Assembly: GCA_038852285.1 (NCBI GenBank)
Contig: JAWCKG010000019.1
Location: forward strand, 1 to 34,062
DNA length: 34,062 nt
Direction: 5' to 3'
DNA from: Candidatus Bathyarchaeia archaeon
GTDB taxonomy: Archaea; Thermoproteota; Bathyarchaeia; 40CM-2-53-6; DTGE01
The notes beneath the pieces are model-generated. The model was not told where the DNA came from. It made no database searches and was given only the letters and a program-made list of their open reading frames with translations. Both the position numbers and the translations under genes were made by a program. Of the stretch, positions 4,932 through 34,062 are shown in pieces (within the stretch, counting starts at the first letter, position 1; the number at the start of each line of letters is the position of its first letter).

Positions 4932-6998
4932 ATGTGGAAAGGGTGGAGAGTAGGGTTAAATAGGAGGGTGTCGGTCGATTCTATGGGAGTCATGAAGGAC
5001 TGTAAGTTGTTTTATCGGATTCTTTCAACTATCTTCATCATTCTTCTCGCGGCTTCAATTATCCCTTGCCCTGGTTGGGGTTCTGAAACCTCTACATTTA
5101 TGGAAGGAAGTAGGGAGGTTCAGCTTCAGGTTAAGGTGGTGTTCATCGGTTTTAACCGCTCGGTCATCGACGAAAAATATCTAGCTTGGAACGGACCACA
5201 GTATAAGTATCAAGCTGTGCTGATCCCCGGAGTCTCCACAAACGTTCTTTACCGGTTCAGCTACGTTTACGAGTATTTCGACTCAGGTTTAACCTCAGAG
5301 TTCGTCGACTATCTGGCCAGTATGGGACTTGAGGAAGCTCGGAGAAATTTACTGTGGAACTTAACCTACCGTTATACTGAGACTGGTTTGAACGTTAACT
5401 ACACGCAGTTTCAAGTTGATTCTTTGAACACATTATACGACGTGGACCGGGTGGAGGATTGGCTGTACGAAAACCGAGAAAGGTTTGGAGGTCTACCTGA
5501 AAACGGGTATACTTTGTTCCTCGCTTACCTGCCATCCTTACCATTGTTTACACCGGATCAATACGACGCCGTGGTGAGAGGTGAGCACGTGACGGTAACA
5601 CCTCACTACTACAATCGGACCTTTGTGGACATAGATTTGGGACTTATCGTGAATGCTCGATGGATGACTGGTTGGGGTGGGAGGCATCGCTTCTACTACA
5701 TTGACTTATCCGCTGGTCCCAGCATGGTGGATCAGCAGCTTCCCCTACAGTTGGCGGCCCATGTAAACGGCGTCGACCTCTCTACCGCTTATGGGTTAAG
5801 GTGGCTGAACCAGTACATTTCCGACTACGTTTACGGAGCTGTTTACAACCTCTTCGCCCCAGACCTGATCTACCCATTAAACTTGGCTGAAAAGTACAGG
5901 GTTGACATCCTCGTGTTGGATAACCGATCCAAAGAATCTGAGCCTGCTTTGAATCGAACCCTCAACTCTGATAAGGTGAAGGAAGAGCTGGGTGAACTAT
6001 TATCCTTCGCCGAGGTGGAGGTGGAGGTTCGATTTAAATCTCTGCGGGAATATCCGGAGCTGGAAACTTTGATCCGAAACTGCACCCTACAAGCCAGGGG
6101 TGTTACCTTAACCTATCCACCCGAGGTTTATTATCCCCCAAACATCGTGGACTTGAGGCCTCTCTATCATTGGCTGAGCGAAAGCGGAGAAGGACACCTG
6201 AAGGATTTTTTCACGGTCGTCCGTAACGAGAAGCAGTTCGACATACCGGTTATGATATTCGTCTTTGAAAGGGACTTCAACATCGGCCTATCCCAGAAGG
6301 AGTGGCTGGCCCAGATTGGAGGTGTTGGCGACCTATGGGGGATCAGCCTCTACGACGTGGTGTTGATCAGCCACTCAGAGTTTGACCTCACTTTGGGAGA
6401 CCATGTCAAATACGGGCCCAAACAGGAGGGCAAAGGATTGGGGTTCACTCAAACAGTCATCCATGAGGTGGGCCACATATTGGGGTTGAATCATCCCTTC
6501 ATCTATGACCCCACTGAGGATTATGTGGCGTCTGTGATGGCATACTATCCATACGTGTATGAGTTCAGCCAGTTTGATAAGGACACGTTTCTTAGAAGCC
6601 TCACCGACGAGGTCATCATGGACACGAGGGTGAAAGTGGCGGGTGAAGCCGCGGAGAATCCGTTACTTGGATCCACGTACGTTGAGGTTACCCGCCTGCT
6701 GAACCAAGCGGAGGCCTTGTACGATGAGATGAAATACGGGGAGGCGTTGGCAAAGGCGTTGGAAGCCTCCCAAAGGCCCTTGGCACCTCAGAGGACGGTG
6801 AGCGTACCCTCATTTTTCCTCGCTTTATACGCCTTCCTGATCGGTGGAGGAGTCGGATTTACCGCCGCCTACTACGCGTATGTGAGGAGGAGAGAAACCC
6901 GTTACTGCCCTGACTGTGGGGCGAAGCTTCAGGTTCAGCGAGGTGGATGGTATTGTCCTCGATGCGGAGGATGGAAGGAGTTGGAGGCGGTGGGCTAG
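4932..6998 (+). CDS. Membrane-anchored metzincin-like zinc protease with C-terminal zinc ribbon
   Basis: The 688-residue protein has a hydrophobic signal or anchor at about 27-50 and a large extracytoplasmic region. A zinc-binding HEVGHILGLNH at 511-521 fits HExxHxxGxxH, and SVMAYYPY puts a methionine (Met536) where metzincins have their Met-turn. A short helical stretch (about 590-620) leads to a transmembrane helix (about 627-651) and a C-terminal zinc ribbon with Cys659, Cys662, Cys675 and Cys678. By topology the protease domain should be outside and the ribbon in the cytoplasm. I do not recognise the domain between residues 55 and 400. ATG 4932 is the first start; ATG 4983 or 4992 would give a more usual signal peptide. 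The stop overlaps the convergent CofE-like gene by 4 bases. Protease function is inferred from the motif alone. Confidence 0.72.
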   Translation: MWKGWRVGLNRRVSVDSMGVMKDCKLFYRILSTIFIILLAASIIPCPGWGSETSTFMEGSREVQLQVKVVFIGFNRSVIDEKYLAWNGPQYKYQAVLIPGVSTNVLYRFSYVYEYFDSGLTSEFVDYLASMGLEEARRNLLWNLTYRYTETGLNVNYTQFQVDSLNTLYDVDRVEDWLYENRERFGGLPENGYTLFLAYLPSLPLFTPDQYDAVVRGEHVTVTPHYYNRTFVDIDLGLIVNARWMTGWGGRHRFYYIDLSAGPSMVDQQLPLQLAAHVNGVDLSTAYGLRWLNQYISDYVYGAVYNLFAPDLIYPLNLAEKYRVDILVLDNRSKESEPALNRTLNSDKVKEELGELLSFAEVEVEVRFKSLREYPELETLIRNCTLQARGVTLTYPPEVYYPPNIVDLRPLYHWLSESGEGHLKDFFTVVRNEKQFDIPVMIFVFERDFNIGLSQKEWLAQIGGVGDLWGISLYDVVLISHSEFDLTLGDHVKYGPKQEGKGLGFTQTVIHEVGHILGLNHPFIYDPTEDYVASVMAYYPYVYEFSQFDKDTFLRSLTDEVIMDTRVKVAGEAAENPLLGSTYVEVTRLLNQAEALYDEMKYGEALAKALEASQRPLAPQRTVSVPSFFLALYAFLIGGGVGFTAAYYAYVRRRETRYCPDCGAKLQVQRGGWYCPRCGGWKELEAVG

Positions 6999-19030: not shown

Positions 19031-19867
19031 TTACTTTATGGCTCCCCTCATGATGCCCGCGATGATCTGCTTTTGGAGGACGATCGCTAACACTATGACT
19101 GGTAGGCTTGATAGGATTCCAGCCGCCGCCAGCTGGGTGTATAGGACCCTTGCCCCTGACATGAACTCTAGGATTCTGGGTTGGAGGAGTTGGACTTGCA
19201 CGATGCCCACGGTGTTCGCGAACATGAGGTCGTTCCATGAGTTGATGAAGGAGAAGATTAGGATTAGGAAGAATCCGAACCTCGCTAGGGGGATGACCTC
19301 TCTGAACAATACCTTTATCCTGGAGTAGCCGTCGATCCTCAACGCCTCATCGATGTCCCTGGGAACGCTCTCATATATTCCTATCAGGAACCATGTCATC
19401 AACGGAAGAAGTATAACTGAGTGCGCGAACACCATTCCTATTAACGTGTCCAGTAAACCTAACGTTTTCAGCAAGACGACGATTGGGATCAACATGGCTA
19501 GCCCCGGTAGCATGTAGGCTACGACGATGAAGTTGAACATCGCGTTGTTGCCTGGAAACCTTATATGCGCCACGGCGTAAGCGCCCATCGAGCCCGCTAC
19601 TAGGACGAAGCATGTAGTTAAAACGGCCACCGCGGCGGAGTATAGGAAGGCCCTGTTGAAAGGCGCGTATCTTAGAACGTAAATGTAATTTGAAAGCGAC
19701 ACGTCGATGCTTTTAAACGGGAAAGGCGGCCTAGCGATGAGCTGCGGCTCCGGCATGAGGCTCGCCACGATCGTGAATAAATATGGAACCAGCATAACCA
19801 AGACGACCGCGATGACCGCCACATACTTGAGTGCTTTAAAAAGCTTAGACTCCTTTCTCCAAGCCAT
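19031..19867 (-). CDS. Sugar-type ABC transporter permease, MalG-like
   Basis: The 278-residue permease has six predicted helices and the EAA loop DIDEALRIDGYSRIKVLFRE, with the MalG/carbohydrate-uptake family pattern MTWFLIGIYESVP just before it. It is the third gene of the leftward operon 22222-19031, starting 3 bases after the stop of the upstream permease, with GAGGGG as ribosome site. No ATPase gene follows on this strand. Confidence 0.92.
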   Translation of the reverse strand: MAWRKESKLFKALKYVAVIAVVLVMLVPYLFTIVASLMPEPQLIARPPFPFKSIDVSLSNYIYVLRYAPFNRAFLYSAAVAVLTTCFVLVAGSMGAYAVAHIRFPGNNAMFNFIVVAYMLPGLAMLIPIVVLLKTLGLLDTLIGMVFAHSVILLPLMTWFLIGIYESVPRDIDEALRIDGYSRIKVLFREVIPLARFGFFLILIFSFINSWNDLMFANTVGIVQVQLLQPRILEFMSGARVLYTQLAAAGILSSLPVIVLAIVLQKQIIAGIMRGAIK

Positions 19868-19870
19868 ATT

Positions 19871-20752
19871 TTATCCCCTCTTATACCATAGCTTTATCAG
19901 TATTAAGGCGAAGATCACCGCGATCACAGTTAATATGTAGGCCATGGCTGATCCGTAGCCCAGCCTGTTCCATGGAAACGCTGTATGCCATGAAAGGAAG
20001 TATAGCATGTAGGTTCGGTATCCTGGTCCCCCGCCGGTGATTCCCATGACCAAGTCGTACGCTTGAGTACCTGATAGGGAAAGGATTCCTGAGAGGATGG
20101 AGTTCACCACTAGAACAGGCTTTAGAAACGGAATGATGATCTTCCGAATAACTGTAAGCCGAGAGGCCCCATAAACCACAGCAGACTCCAAGCTGTCCAC
20201 CGGCACGTTTTGGAGGGCTGAGAGGAAAATGAAAGCGAACAGCGGGGAGCTTTTCCATAGCGAAACAACCGCGAGGCCGAAAAGGGCTAGGTTTGGGTCG
20301 CCGAAAATGGCGTATTGATACCGCCACACCCCCAACCTTTCCATCAGATACGTGAATGGCCCAAAACCGGGATTAAAGAAGAGATAGAACACCGTGGCCG
20401 CTACGATCGGGGGGGTCGCCCACGGTATGAGGAGACACACCCTAGCGAAGGTCCTGCCTCGAAACTCGGAGTTGAAGAGTAAGGCTATCCCCAGGCCTAG
20501 AGGAACACCGACTAAGGTGTGGAAGGCGACGTATATTATCGTTTGAATTAAAGCCTGGTGGAAAACTTTATCATATAAAAGGTTAACATAGTTTCGCAAT
20601 CCGATGAAGTTGAGCTCTAGATGGCTTAAGGTGATGTCGCTTAAAGAGTATAGGAATGAGGCGATTAACGGGTACAGGATAAATACGCCGAAGAATATAA
20701 AAAAGGGGAGGAGGAATGGGAGAGCTTCCTTCAGCTCTCTGCTCCCAGGCAT
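19871..20752 (-). CDS. Sugar-type ABC transporter permease, MalF/UgpA-like
   Basis: The 293-residue permease has an N-terminal helix (FLLPFFIFFGVFILYPLIAS), FIGLRNYVNLL, and the EAA loop ESAVVYGASRLTVIRKIIIP. It is clearly paralogous to the partial permease at 33353-34062 (shared ARVCLLIPWA.PPIV, FIFLSALQN-like stretches). The start ATG is 12 bases after the binding-protein stop, so the operon is binding protein, MalF-like, MalG-like. Confidence 0.92.
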   Translation of the reverse strand: MPGSRELKEALPFLLPFFIFFGVFILYPLIASFLYSLSDITLSHLELNFIGLRNYVNLLYDKVFHQALIQTIIYVAFHTLVGVPLGLGIALLFNSEFRGRTFARVCLLIPWATPPIVAATVFYLFFNPGFGPFTYLMERLGVWRYQYAIFGDPNLALFGLAVVSLWKSSPLFAFIFLSALQNVPVDSLESAVVYGASRLTVIRKIIIPFLKPVLVVNSILSGILSLSGTQAYDLVMGITGGGPGYRTYMLYFLSWHTAFPWNRLGYGSAMAYILTVIAVIFALILIKLWYKRG

Positions 20753-20764
20753 TCAGCTCAACCT

Positions 20765-22222
20765 TTACTCTGGGAATATGAACCTTTCCTCGACGGGTAT
20801 CTGCTTTATCAGATCGTCGATCCGTGACTTGTATTTTTGCATGTCAGGCCAAGGATCATAGTATCCTCCACCGAACTTCGCGTATTCTTCTTGTAGAAAT
20901 TTGTCGCATTCTTCCTGCGCAGCTTTCATCGCGTCTTCAGCATTCTTCTCCTTAGCCAACACGCTGGCGACCGCGGCTTCAGTAGCGGTGATAAACGCTC
21001 CATACATGGGCCTCTCGTACCTGTTGGCCTTGTACTTTGACTGTGCCAGCGATGACCTCATGATCAAGGCATAAGGCATCTTCTTCAACCTATCATCCAC
21101 GATATAGGACCATCTAGTCGGAATAGGCTCCTCGTTCTCCTGCTTCCAGAAGACGCTTAAAGCCATTTGCACTTGAACTTCTCGGCTGTTCAGGTATTGG
21201 ATGAAGTCCCAGGCCTCCTTCTTGTATTTAGCCATTTTCGGTATCGCGTATCCTTCGCACGCCACTTGGGATCCTGATCGAACTACACCTTTATGGCCGG
21301 GCCACAGCCATGAATAAACGTTCTTGATTTTAGCTGTAGGATCTAACATCACCGATGCGATCCATGGATAATACAGCCCGAATACACTTTCACCGTTATA
21401 CCATTTAGTACAGGACTCGACAAAAGCAATGTCGGTCAAAGAGGCTGGGGACATGTAATTTTCGAACACCGTCAACATGTCTTTCGCCGCTTTAATGGAG
21501 GCATCACTGTCCGCCCACCATGTTTGCATCGCATCATCCTTCCACATGGCCCCTCCGTTGCCGTGTAGATAGCAGAGATAAGGTGGAAAGAGATATCCTT
21601 GTTTTAATCCATACATCATTGCGACACGTCCCCTTTCAGGTTCGTGAACCTCCTTGAAGACTTCAAGCATCTCCTCGAAGCTCGTTGGGAACGAAAGCCC
21701 CTTCGCGTCTAGAACGTCGCCGTCCCCGTTTAACGTGAATATTTCAAACATCCTTGGAAGCCCATACCATTCGCCTTTGTGCCAGATCGCGTTTTTCGCA
21801 TATGGTACGATGTCGTCTTGAACATCGCTTGGCAACGTAACGCCCATCTCTGAGAGGGGAGTCCAATATTTATGAAATTCTTGCGTGATACCTCCCCATG
21901 TGTATGCTACATCCCAGGCGTAGGTTCCAGCGGCGAAGGTTGAAGCCTCCTTCGTATAAACGTCGAAGAAGGAGTCCACAAGCACATTGATCTTAATGTG
22001 CGGATTCTGCTTCATATAATTCTCTATCGGCTTCCAACCCGTGTAGCCCACGTCGTAATAGAACCCTGAGTGCCCCGTCGTATAGAAGTTCAACGTCACC
22101 GGGCTTGGTGGTTTAGGCCTCGTTGCGTAGTATGCTCCTCCAGCCGCTACAGCTACGACGACAACACCTGCCGCAGCGTACTTCACATAACCCCGCCTAG
22201 AAACCTTCTCTTCCTTACCCAA
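20765..22222 (-). CDS. Sugar-type ABC transporter substrate-binding protein (paralogue A)
   Basis: The 485-residue protein starts with TTG 22222 and has a leader with twin arginines (SRRGYVKYAAAG), resembling a Tat signal, followed by a hydrophobic stretch. The mature part has family 1 binding-protein features: VTLNFYTTGHSGF, STFAAGTYAWDVAYTWGG, GLKQGYLFPPYLCYLHGNGG and FGLYYPWIASVM. Those features are shared with the 31864-33336 protein. It should bind a carbohydrate or related solute outside the membrane; the ligand is unknown. The hydrophobic segment may stay as an N-terminal anchor, as no lipobox is seen. Promoter-like sequence lies at 22267-22279. Confidence 0.9.
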   Translation of the reverse strand: MGKEEKVSRRGYVKYAAAGVVVVAVAAGGAYYATRPKPPSPVTLNFYTTGHSGFYYDVGYTGWKPIENYMKQNPHIKINVLVDSFFDVYTKEASTFAAGTYAWDVAYTWGGITQEFHKYWTPLSEMGVTLPSDVQDDIVPYAKNAIWHKGEWYGLPRMFEIFTLNGDGDVLDAKGLSFPTSFEEMLEVFKEVHEPERGRVAMMYGLKQGYLFPPYLCYLHGNGGAMWKDDAMQTWWADSDASIKAAKDMLTVFENYMSPASLTDIAFVESCTKWYNGESVFGLYYPWIASVMLDPTAKIKNVYSWLWPGHKGVVRSGSQVACEGYAIPKMAKYKKEAWDFIQYLNSREVQVQMALSVFWKQENEEPIPTRWSYIVDDRLKKMPYALIMRSSLAQSKYKANRYERPMYGAFITATEAAVASVLAKEKNAEDAMKAAQEECDKFLQEEYAKFGGGYYDPWPDMQKYKSRIDDLIKQIPVEERFIFPE

Positions 22223-29818: not shown

Positions 29819-29859
29819 TTCTCCGTCACCTGGCTGAGGATGCTTCGCTACGCAGAACC

Positions 29860-29941
29860 GGTATATAAACTGTTAGCAAAGCAAACGTCTAAACGTCACA
29901 TGGCGGTTTATAAACGTCAATATCTTCGGTTATATTTATAT
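29860..29941. promoter_or_regulatory. acs / chaperonin divergent promoter with three AAACGTC repeats
   Basis: GTTTATATACC (minus, about 29860-29870) suits the acs promoter and TTATATTTATAT (about 29930-29941) the chaperonin promoter. Between them AAACGTC occurs three times in the same direction (29883-29889, 29891-29897, 29912-29918). The second and third are 21 bases apart, two helical turns. Such a set could be an operator for one or both genes. Confidence 0.55.
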
Positions 29942-29968
29942 GAAATCGCCGTTTTGGTATTGAAATGG

Positions 29969-31642
29969 ATGAAGGCGGAAGGGTTGGACGACGCTTCGAT
30001 AAGCCGTGAAAACGTGCTGAGAAGAGGGGCTAAATGCGTTAAGGGATTGGACGCGAGGAGGTCCAACATCTACATAGCGGCCTCGATAAAGGAGCTCATT
30101 AAAGGCTCTTTAGGCCCAGAGGGAAGGGATAAATTAATCGTTAACCCGAAGGAGGGGCCTGCCCTAACCAGCGACGGATACATTATGTTACGGAGAATGA
30201 AGGAGCTGGCGGACCACCCTGTTGTAAACATACTTTACGAAGCCACCTTCGCCATGAAAAACGAGTACGGCGACGGAAAGAAGTCTATCCTCATCTTGGC
30301 CGGCGAGCTCCTTAAGAAAGCTTACACCATGATAGGTAAGAAGATACATCCCGCCATCATTGTGGAAGGCTACAGCAAAGCAGCCTCCAAAGCCCTAGAG
30401 GCGCTAAGGGAGATGTCAGAGCCTCTTTCCACTCATGACGTCGATGGACTGCGTTCTTTAGCTAAGACGGCTATGTGTGGAGGGCTGTCTGACGTAGAGG
30501 CGGAAAGGTTGGCTGAGCTCGCTGCTCATACTATACAACGTTTAAGCTTCGGATCCTCTAAGGCAAGCTCATTAGAACTGGACATGGTGAAGTTGATCTC
30601 CATTCCCGGTGGAGCTGTATCTGACAGCGAGCTAGTAGAAGGAGTGGTGATAAAAAATGATGTCTTACATCAAAACATGCCTAGGAGGGTGGAGAACGCG
30701 GGAATCGCCTTGATGACTATGCCCTTGGAGATGAAAAAGGTGACATATACCCATGATGGAGCCAAACTGGAGATCCTCACTCCGGAGAATTGGACTCAAT
30801 TCCTAGACGAGGAGCGTAAATGTATGCTAGGATTGGTTGAGGCGTTGGAAAAAGCTGGAGCCAAGCTGGTGCTGACCCAGTGGGACATAGATAACTATGT
30901 TCAATACGAGTTGGCGGAGAGGGGGATAATGGCGGCTGAACGTGTAAAGGAGGAAGACCTCCTGTTGGTGGCGAAGGCGACGGACGCCAAGCTGATTAAA
31001 GAGCAGGGCGCTGTTTCACCGGAGTTCATCGGGTTCGCTGGATTGGTTGAGGAAAAACGAGTTCAGGGAACCCGCCCTGCTGAAAGACGCTGGATCTTCA
31101 TTAGGAATTGTCGGAACCCTCGATCTGCGACGATTATCGTTAGAGGCGTCGTCGAGGAGAGAAATAAGGAAGTTGGAAGATCGCTGAAAAACGCCTTAAG
31201 GGTTTTAAAAGCCTTCTTGGAGGAAGGCGCTATTGTTGGAGGCGCTGGATCAACTGAGATGGAGCTCTCATTTAGGCTTCGGTCATGGGCGCGGGGACTT
31301 CCGGGAAAGGAGCAAATAGCTGCCTTAGCTTTCGCCGATGCCCTCGAAGAGATCCCAGCGATTTTAGCCGAAAACTTGGGGTTAGATCCACTCGAAACTG
31401 TCATGAAGCTCAGGGCTGAACACCACGCGGGTAAGAAGTGGGCTGGAGTCGACGCGAGGAAGAGAACAATTTGTGAAGATGTTTTAAAAGAAGGCATCAT
31501 AGAACCATACCCCTTAAAGGCCCAGGTCATCAAGACCGCCGCTGAAATATCAACCCTCCTCTTGAGAATAGACGATCAAATATACGCCTCACGAAGTCGG
31601 GAGGCTAGAAAGCCAAGAGAAATACCCCAAGATAAGAGATGA
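29969..31642 (+). CDS. Divergent group II chaperonin (thermosome-like) with altered ATPase residues
   Basis: It aligns by eye with thermosome subunits end to end: ARRSNIYIAASIKELIKGSLGPEGRDKL at the start, the apical middle, LAFADALEEIPAILAENLGLDP, GVDARKRTICEDVLKEGIIEPY and LLRIDDQI. Thermosomes form double rings that refold proteins with ATP. Two key sites differ. The P-loop GDGTTT is GDGKKS (30269-30286), and the catalytic aspartate expected in SLHDALRV is asparagine (AAC at 31190-31192, in SLKNALRVL). ATP hydrolysis may be weak or absent. The start ATG 29969 gives about 557 residues, close to family length, and follows the TATA box at 29930-29941. The longer frame back to 29840 reads through that promoter and is unlikely. 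Confidence 0.82.
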   Translation: MKAEGLDDASISRENVLRRGAKCVKGLDARRSNIYIAASIKELIKGSLGPEGRDKLIVNPKEGPALTSDGYIMLRRMKELADHPVVNILYEATFAMKNEYGDGKKSILILAGELLKKAYTMIGKKIHPAIIVEGYSKAASKALEALREMSEPLSTHDVDGLRSLAKTAMCGGLSDVEAERLAELAAHTIQRLSFGSSKASSLELDMVKLISIPGGAVSDSELVEGVVIKNDVLHQNMPRRVENAGIALMTMPLEMKKVTYTHDGAKLEILTPENWTQFLDEERKCMLGLVEALEKAGAKLVLTQWDIDNYVQYELAERGIMAAERVKEEDLLLVAKATDAKLIKEQGAVSPEFIGFAGLVEEKRVQGTRPAERRWIFIRNCRNPRSATIIVRGVVEERNKEVGRSLKNALRVLKAFLEEGAIVGGAGSTEMELSFRLRSWARGLPGKEQIAALAFADALEEIPAILAENLGLDPLETVMKLRAEHHAGKKWAGVDARKRTICEDVLKEGIIEPYPLKAQVIKTAAEISTLLLRIDDQIYASRSREARKPREIPQDKR

Positions 31643-31863: not shown

Positions 31864-33336
31864 ATGCATTTGGGTAAGGAAGAGAAGGTTTCTAGGCGGG
31901 GTTATGTGAAGTATGCTGCGGCCGGTGTTGTTGTCGTGGCCGTGGCGGCTGGAGGAGCATACTACGCGACGAGGCCTAAACCAACCCCTACGCCTACGCC
32001 GACCCCAACACCAAAGCCCACACCAACGCCGACACCTACGCCGACGGTTAAGCCCACCCCAACTCCAACGCCCACACCAACCCCAGTAACCATTAACGCT
32101 TATTTTCCGGCTCACAGCAATTTCATGGCTTCTGAGGCTGTTCTAGGCGAGTTTACGAAGAAGACGGGAATAAAGGTTAACGCCATCGTGGACTCGTTTT
32201 TCGTGATACATGACAAGTTGGCGAGCACCTTCGCTGCCGGAGTTTACGCTTACGACGCATGCTATACGTGGGGTGCATGGCTCGCTGAGTTCTTAGAGTT
32301 CTACCAGCCGTTGGATGAGATTGGAGTTGAGCCTCCAAAAGAGGTCGTGGATGACTTAATACCGTGGACGCGATTTTCCTGCGTGTTCAAGGAGAAATGG
32401 TACGGGTTACCTAACGCCTTCTGGGTGATGGTCCTCCACATGAACAAGGACTTGTACTCTGAAGCTGGTTTGGAAACCCCCACCACATGGAGCCAATTCC
32501 TGGAAAACTGTGAAGCCTTGAAGAAAAAGTATAAGGCCCAGGGAATATACCCGTTCGCCGCAGGCTTGAAGCAGGGATACCTGTTCCCCCACTTCTGCGC
32601 GTTTCTGCACGGAAACGCTGGAAGGCTGTGGAAGAAGGATGAAAGGAGGACTGTTCAAACGGACAGCCCAGAATGCGTCGAAGCCGTGAAAGACTTGGTA
32701 TATTTGTACGATAATTACATGGATCCAGGCTCAGTTGAATGGATCGCCGGCATCGAAAGCGGTAAGGCATATTACACTAAGAAGGCGGCCATGACACTTT
32801 ACTATCCATGGCATACCGTGGTGGGTAGAAAGTATATGGGGATTACTTCGGAGATAGCGCTGTGGCCTGGGAAGAAGACTAGATCCGGATCCGGATCAGC
32901 CTCTGAAGCTCAGGCCATTCCTCGAACAGCGAAGTTTAAGAAAGAGGCCTTCGAGCTAATGAAGTTTAACACCTCTGACTGGGTGAATGTACAGAAGGTC
33001 CTGGCGATAGACGACAAATACGAGAGTTGTTGGCCCATCCTAAACCATCAATACGACGCCCCGGAGCTTCAAAACTTCGTATACCCCGGGTTCATAAAGA
33101 CGATTAGGGAGCAAGCCAAATACAATTGTACTCGATACGAACGTCCGGCGTATGAGAAAATCATTGTGGGAATACTGGAAGCCGAGATAGTGAACGCCAT
33201 AAACAAGTCGAAGAAGCCTGAAGACGCGATGAAAGACGCTTTCGAAGCCATTGACCCAGTTGTAGAAGACGAGTACGCTCGATACGGTGGCGGATACGAG
33301 GATCCATGGGAGACGATGCCACATCCCGTCGAGTAG
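31864..33336 (+). CDS. Sugar-type ABC transporter substrate-binding protein (paralogue B)
   Basis: The 490-residue paralogue of the 20765-22222 protein shares an almost identical leader (GKEEKVSRRGYVKYAAAG, twin arginines, hydrophobic stretch). It then has a Thr-Pro repeat linker (about 40-75) missing from paralogue A, and a binding domain (VTINAYFPAHSNF; STFAAGVYAYDACYTWG; GLKQGYLFPHFCAFLHGNAG; MTLYYPWHTVVG). The linker would hold the binding domain off the membrane if the leader is an uncleaved anchor. The ligand is unknown. ATG 31864 or TTG 31870 (the start used by paralogue A, better spaced from GAGGG) may be the start. The permease begins 16 bases after the stop. Confidence 0.91.
   Translation: MHLGKEEKVSRRGYVKYAAAGVVVVAVAAGGAYYATRPKPTPTPTPTPTPKPTPTPTPTPTVKPTPTPTPTPTPVTINAYFPAHSNFMASEAVLGEFTKKTGIKVNAIVDSFFVIHDKLASTFAAGVYAYDACYTWGAWLAEFLEFYQPLDEIGVEPPKEVVDDLIPWTRFSCVFKEKWYGLPNAFWVMVLHMNKDLYSEAGLETPTTWSQFLENCEALKKKYKAQGIYPFAAGLKQGYLFPHFCAFLHGNAGRLWKKDERRTVQTDSPECVEAVKDLVYLYDNYMDPGSVEWIAGIESGKAYYTKKAAMTLYYPWHTVVGRKYMGITSEIALWPGKKTRSGSGSASEAQAIPRTAKFKKEAFELMKFNTSDWVNVQKVLAIDDKYESCWPILNHQYDAPELQNFVYPGFIKTIREQAKYNCTRYERPAYEKIIVGILEAEIVNAINKSKKPEDAMKDAFEAIDPVVEDEYARYGGGYEDPWETMPHPVE
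31981..32088 (+). repeat. Thr-Pro codon repeat encoding a flexible linker
   Basis: About 36 codons are mostly alternating ACN and CCN, interrupted by two Lys codons and one Val codon. The third codon positions vary, so the protein pattern is kept although the DNA is not a perfect tandem repeat. Slippage in this tract could change linker length. Confidence 0.85.
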
Positions 33337-33352: not shown

Positions 33353-34062
33353 TTGCCGAGAAAAAAGTCCAGGGGCGAGTTTAGGCTCGCCCTCACTCTC
33401 CTAACCCCCCTTTTTGTTCTAATTGCGATTTTTATCGCGTTTCCCCTTTTATACTCCTTCTACCTCACATTCAACGACTTCAGTCTAAGGGATTTGAAGG
33501 CCCAGTTCATCGGGTTGGGGAATTACCTTGCTTTGCTGAAGGACCCTGTGTTTAGGGCTTCGCTGACGCATACCGCGTATTTTACGGTGATCAGCATGTT
33601 GGTCGGTATTCCCCTAGCCTTGGGAGTGGCCCTCCTCTTGAACGAGGAGTTTCCCGGTAGGTCTGTGGCCAGGGTCTGTCTGCTGATTCCATGGGCTTTG
33701 CCTCCCATCGTGGTGGCGATCATGTTCTCCTTCATGATGAACACCTCCTACGGGATTGTTAACTATATTCTCAAAGCCGTGGGGTTGACCACCACATCCA
33801 TAGCGTTTTTCGGTGATCCGAAGCTGGCTTTAAACTCGCTGATCCTCGTTAACTTGTGGAAGGTGACGCCGTTATACGCCATCATCTTCCTCTCAGCCCT
33901 ACAGAACATCCCAGTGGAAACGGTTGAATCCGCTAAGGTGTATGGAGCCGGCGCGTGGCAAAGGTTTAGGAAGGTCACCTTACCTTGTATTAGGCCTACG
34001 ATCATCATCATCGCCATTTTAACCGCGCTACTGTCCCTACAGGTCTTCGACATCATCATATC
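33353..34062 (+). CDS. Sugar-type ABC transporter permease, MalF/UgpA-like, N-terminal part
   Basis: The plus strand is open from TTG 33353 to the window end (236 codons). An in-frame TAA at 33347-33349 and AGGT at about 33339-33342 make this TTG the best start. The translation begins PRKKSRGEFRLALTLLTPLF and includes FIGLGNYLALL, ARVCLLIPWALPPIVVAIM and the EAA loop ESAKVYGAGAWQRFRKVTLP. It is paralogous to the permease at 19871-20752 and keeps the same gene order after the binding protein. The C-terminal helix region and any partner permease lie beyond the edge. Confidence 0.92.
   Translation, partial: MPRKKSRGEFRLALTLLTPLFVLIAIFIAFPLLYSFYLTFNDFSLRDLKAQFIGLGNYLALLKDPVFRASLTHTAYFTVISMLVGIPLALGVALLLNEEFPGRSVARVCLLIPWALPPIVVAIMFSFMMNTSYGIVNYILKAVGLTTTSIAFFGDPKLALNSLILVNLWKVTPLYAIIFLSALQNIPVETVESAKVYGAGAWQRFRKVTLPCIRPTIIIIAILTALLSLQVFDIII

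Follow-up and report, generated by a model that had tools for sequence, protein, structure and literature searches.

The window, a stretch of 34,062 nucleotides of Candidatus Bathyarchaeia archaeon DNA (contig JAWCKG010000019.1), ends with a gene for a thermosome-like protein followed by genes of an ABC importer, the last of them cut short. These features concern us here:

29930..29943, + strand: TATA-box-like AT-rich stretch, GGTTATATTTATAT, read in the sequence about 26–39 bases before the ATG at 29969
29969..31642, + strand: ATPase-degenerate group II chaperonin, a thermosome paralogue (PF00118, Mm-cpn/thermosome alignment, AF2 model)
30173..30175, + strand: codon of Asp69, retained, in TSDG for NDG (alignment)
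30269..30286, + strand: GDGKKS replacing the phosphate-binding GDGTTT (sequence, alignment)
30482..30484, + strand: Gly172 replacing the Lys of the nucleotide-sensing loop (Lys in 65 of 65 canonical rows)
31190..31192, + strand: Asn408 replacing the catalytic Asp, the position of GroEL D398 and Mm-cpn D386 (alignment)
31864..33336, + strand: ABC solute-binding protein (SBP; SBP_bac_1) with a predicted twin-arginine (Tat) signal, KVSRRGYVKYAAAGVVVV; the proposed client
33353..34062, + strand: ABC importer permease (BPD_transp_1), cut by the contig end

The chaperonin gene and its ATP site

The chaperonin frame is intact and encodes 557 amino acids. Upstream of 29969 it stays open to an ATG at 29840, and the position of the TATA-like stretch suggests that the mRNA may be leaderless and begin at the ATG at 29969. 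For the SBP gene, a TTG start at 31870 agrees with its paralogues.

The encoded protein is a group II chaperonin with the three-domain fold, as an earlier note made from the DNA letters had supposed. Its PF00118 match scores 446 bits (cut-off 34.3) and spans profile positions 1–488 of 490; solved archaeal chaperonins align with it end to end, and the equatorial, lid and apical/lid regions are all present in the aligned sequence. It passes the cut-offs of both NCBIfam thermosome models, alpha (NF041082) and beta (NF041083), and with 468.5 bits falls under the curated cut-off (671.1) of TIGR02339, the archaeal thermosome. An AF2 model matches Mm-cpn and thermosome PDB chains with TM values of about 0.7–0.8; its pLDDT is 73, and below 50 for most of residues 1–102, part of the ATP site included, so that the model supports the overall fold only.

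Group II chaperonins are ATP-driven folding machines. In the window protein, the residues that drive the machine have changed. Both substitutions that the earlier note had read, GDGKKS for GDGTTT and SLKNALRVL for SLHDALRV, are borne out, and the second falls in a gap-free alignment in which the catalytic position is Asp in 65 of 65 canonical thermosome rows and Asn in this protein. A shift of the Asp to a neighboring position is ruled out by that alignment and by the lack of any other Asp within the helix. To these a third loss can be added, that of the sensing-loop Lys (Gly172). The LGP motif, the Asp of the NDG turn and the Gly-Asp-Gly are kept. In the thermosome, mutation of the catalytic Asp abolishes hydrolysis, and CCT rings that contain such a subunit still assemble (PMC2846930, PMC5413064). 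Of the three marks by which a thermosome subunit can be recognized as a working ATPase (GDGTT, the catalytic Asp and the Lys of the sensing loop) the window protein has none, and the loss of ATPase activity predicted from its sequence is well supported; the poor hydrolysis first proposed from the motifs follows from established chaperonin enzymology.

The ATP site is not the only part affected: 23 of 80 other near-invariant columns of the alignment are altered as well, which indicates broad divergence. Selective erosion of the ATP site alone was considered and is unsupported, the losses there not being enriched over those at other invariant columns.

Canonical and degenerate paralogues

The window's own assembly (G000; 1.72 Mb, 99% complete) contains four chaperonin genes. 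Two of these, on contigs C13 and C3, are canonical thermosome genes of alpha/beta type, such as the earlier note had thought worth seeking, and the window protein is 36–38% identical to their products. The fourth gene, on C5, encodes a second degenerate paralogue, with GDGRKT, and VRCALTVL in which Cys stands for the catalytic Asp. The two degenerate proteins share 28% identity with each other and 32–39% with the canonical pair. Neither degenerate gene has a close orthologue among 257 genomes of the class, and for the window gene a peptide scan of a GTDB genome collection also gave none. The closest sequences to the window protein in those 257 genomes are canonical subunits, and hence paralogues: thermosome alpha and beta proteins (TIGR02339, NF041082) of the same fold, length and Pfam family and 36–43% identity. 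Unlike them, the window protein lacks GDGTTT, the catalytic Asp and the sensing Lys, and adjoins genes for Tat-signal cargo.

Degenerate paralogues do recur in related genomes. G001, the one other genome of the window's family that the analysis covered, has two canonical and two degenerate chaperonin genes, the latter with the motifs VGGGGATS/IKNIF and KGDGAVS/VKGAL. One genus of a sister clade, f2, whose named records are mostly soil Candidatus Bathyarchaeota MAGs, encodes a conserved degenerate version, with one copy per genome in at least 12 genomes; it reads GDG[IV]S and has Arg or Lys at the position of the catalytic Asp. Pairwise dN/dS values among these f2 proteins are 0.08–0.14 (for pairs with measurable dS), and because of these values we conclude that the Asp-lacking form is maintained by selection in the f2 clade. 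L120 is a more distant member of the degenerate set, and L156, in G045 from another family, is partly degenerate: it reads GDGAKS and has exchanged the NDG Asp for Asn, but retains the catalytic Asp. (Its tail, IKRDYGID, resembles the IKRDFGID of L062.) Because the loss of Asp and GDGTT recurs across many genomes, a local mutation or sequencing error in the window is ruled out.

Of 104 columns that are near-invariant in 65 canonical thermosomes, only eight are altered throughout the 15 degenerate rows. Two of the eight normally hold the catalytic Asp and the first Thr of GDGTT; the sensing-loop Lys is lost in 14 of the 15 rows. Within the order, a profile built from seven degenerate proteins, and leaning towards those seven in its scores, gives full-length or near-full-length degenerate proteins at least 672 bits and canonical ones at most 587; a truncated degenerate copy, L091, scores 581 bits, within the canonical range. 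A scan of 398 genomes of the phylum yielded one extra above-threshold match (L143 in G425), which is canonical. Low-scoring copies in G008, G024:C95 and G010 were considered as degenerate candidates and proved canonical, those of G010 being cut by contig ends.

Some f2 assemblies hold oddities. In L148 (G007:C31) and L118, which are possibly from one genome, the f2 chaperonin gene is broken into two reading frames, whether through decay or through a frameshift introduced in assembly. Two fragmented f2 genomes, G014 and G033, give 8 and 11 chaperonin matches, an unusually large number of gene pieces, and each has several full-length canonical paralogues.

In the tree, the f2 set and L120 make up one clade (100/100). 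A second clade (100/99) unites the second degenerate gene of the window genome with both G001 genes and L156. The branch of the window gene is very long, at about 2 changes per column, and the gene takes no firm place; a topology that puts it in the second clade, the one linked to ABC genes, is not rejected (p-AU 0.48).

Importer genes, oxidoreductases and tatC

All four degenerate genes of the window's family (f1: the window gene, L121, L122 and L123) adjoin an ABC-importer set. The second degenerate gene of the window genome lies 16 bases from a permease-permease-SBP set, and both G001 genes adjoin an SBP, an ABC ATPase and two permeases, in loci that resemble a duplicated block (chaperonin 40%, SBP 47%, ATPase 56%, permeases 43–45%). 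All four SBPs carry a near-identical Tat signal, predicted by motif, of the form KVSRR[GK]Y[VI] with a stretch rich in Ala and Val after it. There are about seven such signals in G000 and five in G001, and the chance that a random gene adjoins one is roughly 0.5–0.8%, if 1850–1900 genes are assumed. A class-wide SBP search added a fifth locus, in G045, where SBP, permease and permease are followed 3 bases on by the convergent chaperonin gene L156. As the sequence reads, this linkage is not co-transcription, because the window SBP gene is preceded by a 222-bp gap and its own TATA-like sequence, and at the remaining ABC loci chaperonin and neighbor are convergently oriented.

The association is not obligatory. 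In G157 an ABC set is without a chaperonin on its downstream side (the upstream side is off the contig), and the same genomes have other Tat-signal SBPs with no linked chaperonin. The window itself has a second ABC importer (19031–22222; SBP and two permeases) with no chaperonin neighbor; its SBP and the chaperonin-adjoining one share their Tat signal peptide and are 40% identical. Two other observations can be recorded here. A long Pro-Thr repeat linker (PTPTPT; 31980–32090) lies 3' of the signal peptide of the chaperonin-adjoining SBP, and one occurs also in the SBP at L121:5685–7133; and a 688-aa open reading frame at 4932–6998 of the window has no Pfam match.

The f2 chaperonin gene comes fourth in a closely spaced run, behind the genes for a Gluconate_2-dh3 protein with a predicted Tat signal (DQTRREFLKLG), a GMC oxidoreductase and a 202-aa protein. 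The 202-aa protein (L113:9387–9995 and equivalents) has no Pfam match, is conserved in every f2 locus examined and is a possible partner of the chaperonin. The gene for TatC adjoins the chaperonin at three loci (L116/L080, L119 and L091), of which L119 and L091 may be one organism in two collections, and TatC is encoded in five of the five genomes tested.

Neighbors of these kinds—ABC set, f2 operon or tatC—occur within about 1.5 kb at 17 of 18 degenerate loci and at one of 75 canonical loci, figures that express consistency across degenerate loci and absence at canonical ones, not unbiased enrichment, given that the genes searched for came from the degenerate loci in the first place and that loci of close relatives are non-independent. 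The 75 are what remains of 78 listed canonical loci when L126, L151 and L155, which contain degenerate genes, are excluded; the sole match among them is marginal, a 54-residue match to an ABC ATPase. The one degenerate locus with no such neighbor is L120, where a cupredoxin gene alone comes near.

What the protein might do

Proteins pass through the Tat system in the folded state. Dedicated chaperones prepare them for export, and in some cases, as in torCAD, the chaperone gene adjoins that of the cargo (PMC6708511). Gene linkage suggests that the window protein may be a chaperone of this sort, dedicated to a client before export and no longer dependent on an ATP cycle, and this is the role that we favor, at somewhat less than even chances. 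A thermosome paralogue that retains the three-domain fold would have ceased to run the normal ATPase cycle; it would bind, hold or help to fold—or perhaps proof-read—cargo that needs to fold in the cytosol before it meets the Tat translocon. The client at the window would be the adjoining Tat-signal SBP, and in the sister clade, f2, the Tat-signal oxidoreductase of gluconate-dehydrogenase type. The protein might act as a ring of its own, as a holdase or smaller oligomer, or as a special subunit of the canonical ring. The fold, the residue losses, their recurrence, purifying selection in f2 and the linkage to Tat-signal cargo and tatC are all observed. What we infer from these is that the ATPase activity is gone, that the protein binds a client and that it has a part in export.

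More tentatively, there could be in Bathyarchaeia a class of ATP-independent chaperonins, made up of two or more clades that lost the Asp in parallel and dedicated to the maturation and quality control of Tat cargo, as chaperonin-fold counterparts of TorD and DmsD. The comparison is by analogy. TorD, DmsD and NarJ, the redox enzyme maturation proteins, are client-specific cytosolic chaperones encoded beside a Tat substrate (PMC6708511), and the bathyarchaeal genes likewise lie beside a predicted Tat-signal SBP (four of four in f1) or GADH3 (in the f2 operon). The folds, however, are unrelated: the window protein has the chaperonin fold, not the all-helical one of TorD and NarJ, and is no member of that family.

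Diverged subunits are not in themselves new. Methanosarcina acetivorans has two, subunits 4 and 5, which reportedly group with CCT6 (Maeder 2005, cited in PMC6420498) and by that description resemble the present case in being additional, diverged group II subunits of one archaeal genome. Our literature search, which left most subscription papers outside its reach, found no report of chaperonin–Tat linkage or, in Bathyarchaeia, of thermosome paralogues with a degenerate ATPase. Eukaryotes are known to have degenerate group II chaperonins; the archaeal set and its link to Tat cargo are apparently unreported. If the favored role is right, these proteins show how general folding rings can turn client-specific and ATP-free, as happened separately in the eukaryotic BBS proteins, and suggest how these archaea ready folded cargo for Tat export. 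The linked chaperonin–cargo pairs make the client idea directly testable.

The earlier note, to which the neighborhood was not available, had offered two roles, ring subunit and scaffold; the neighborhood points to a client-specific role with Tat-signal proteins, and both are less likely. The first, somewhat unlikely in our estimation, is that the window protein is a non-hydrolyzing regulatory or client-adaptor subunit of the canonical ring, comparable to low-ATPase subunits of CCT/TRiC such as CCT6 and CCT8, which hydrolyze little within their ring (PMC5413064). The genome has two canonical subunits for it to join, its equatorial and lid regions are kept in the sequence, and CCT rings with one Asp-to-Ala subunit assemble, most of them still folding luciferase (PMC5413064). 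Its large divergence from those very subunits (36–38% identity) tells against this, as does its linkage, which is to single cargo systems and not to genes for chaperones; the subunits of CCT work within a ring of eight, whereas the bathyarchaeal genes accompany operons for exported proteins. This role overlaps with that of a client chaperone, and the neighborhood would then tell which clients get added.

BBS chaperonin-like proteins act in BBSome assembly. By analogy the window protein could be a chaperonin-derived scaffold with no folding role, one that assembles or regulates an importer or oxidoreductase complex, for example, which we regard as improbable. The vertebrate proteins MKKS, BBS10, BBS12 and CCT8L are likewise diverged group II paralogues with a degraded ATP-hydrolysis motif, and for the BBS proteins a function outside CCT rings is proposed (PMC2846930); they are, however, of separate eukaryotic origin and without a link to Tat export. 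Linkage to ABC and oxidoreductase genes is compatible with scaffold and client chaperone alike, but the apical/lid region is kept, unlike that of a pared-down scaffold, and the theme common to the two clades points to Tat cargo and tatC, not to a single enzyme class.

That the gene is a relaxed duplicate on its way to becoming a pseudogene is very improbable and was already disfavored in the earlier note: the long branch, the want of a close orthologue and the broken f2 copy in G007 fit decay, but the frame is intact, the domain match complete, the same residues have been lost in parallel in several lineages, neighborhoods are conserved and dN/dS in f2 is about 0.1. Equally hard to credit is a slow-cycling chaperonin that still binds ATP and turns it over by altered chemistry, for which the retained Gly-Asp-Gly, NDG Asp and LGP of the window protein and the catalytic Asp of L156 might speak, but which must contend with the loss of Asp, two Thr and sensing Lys together.
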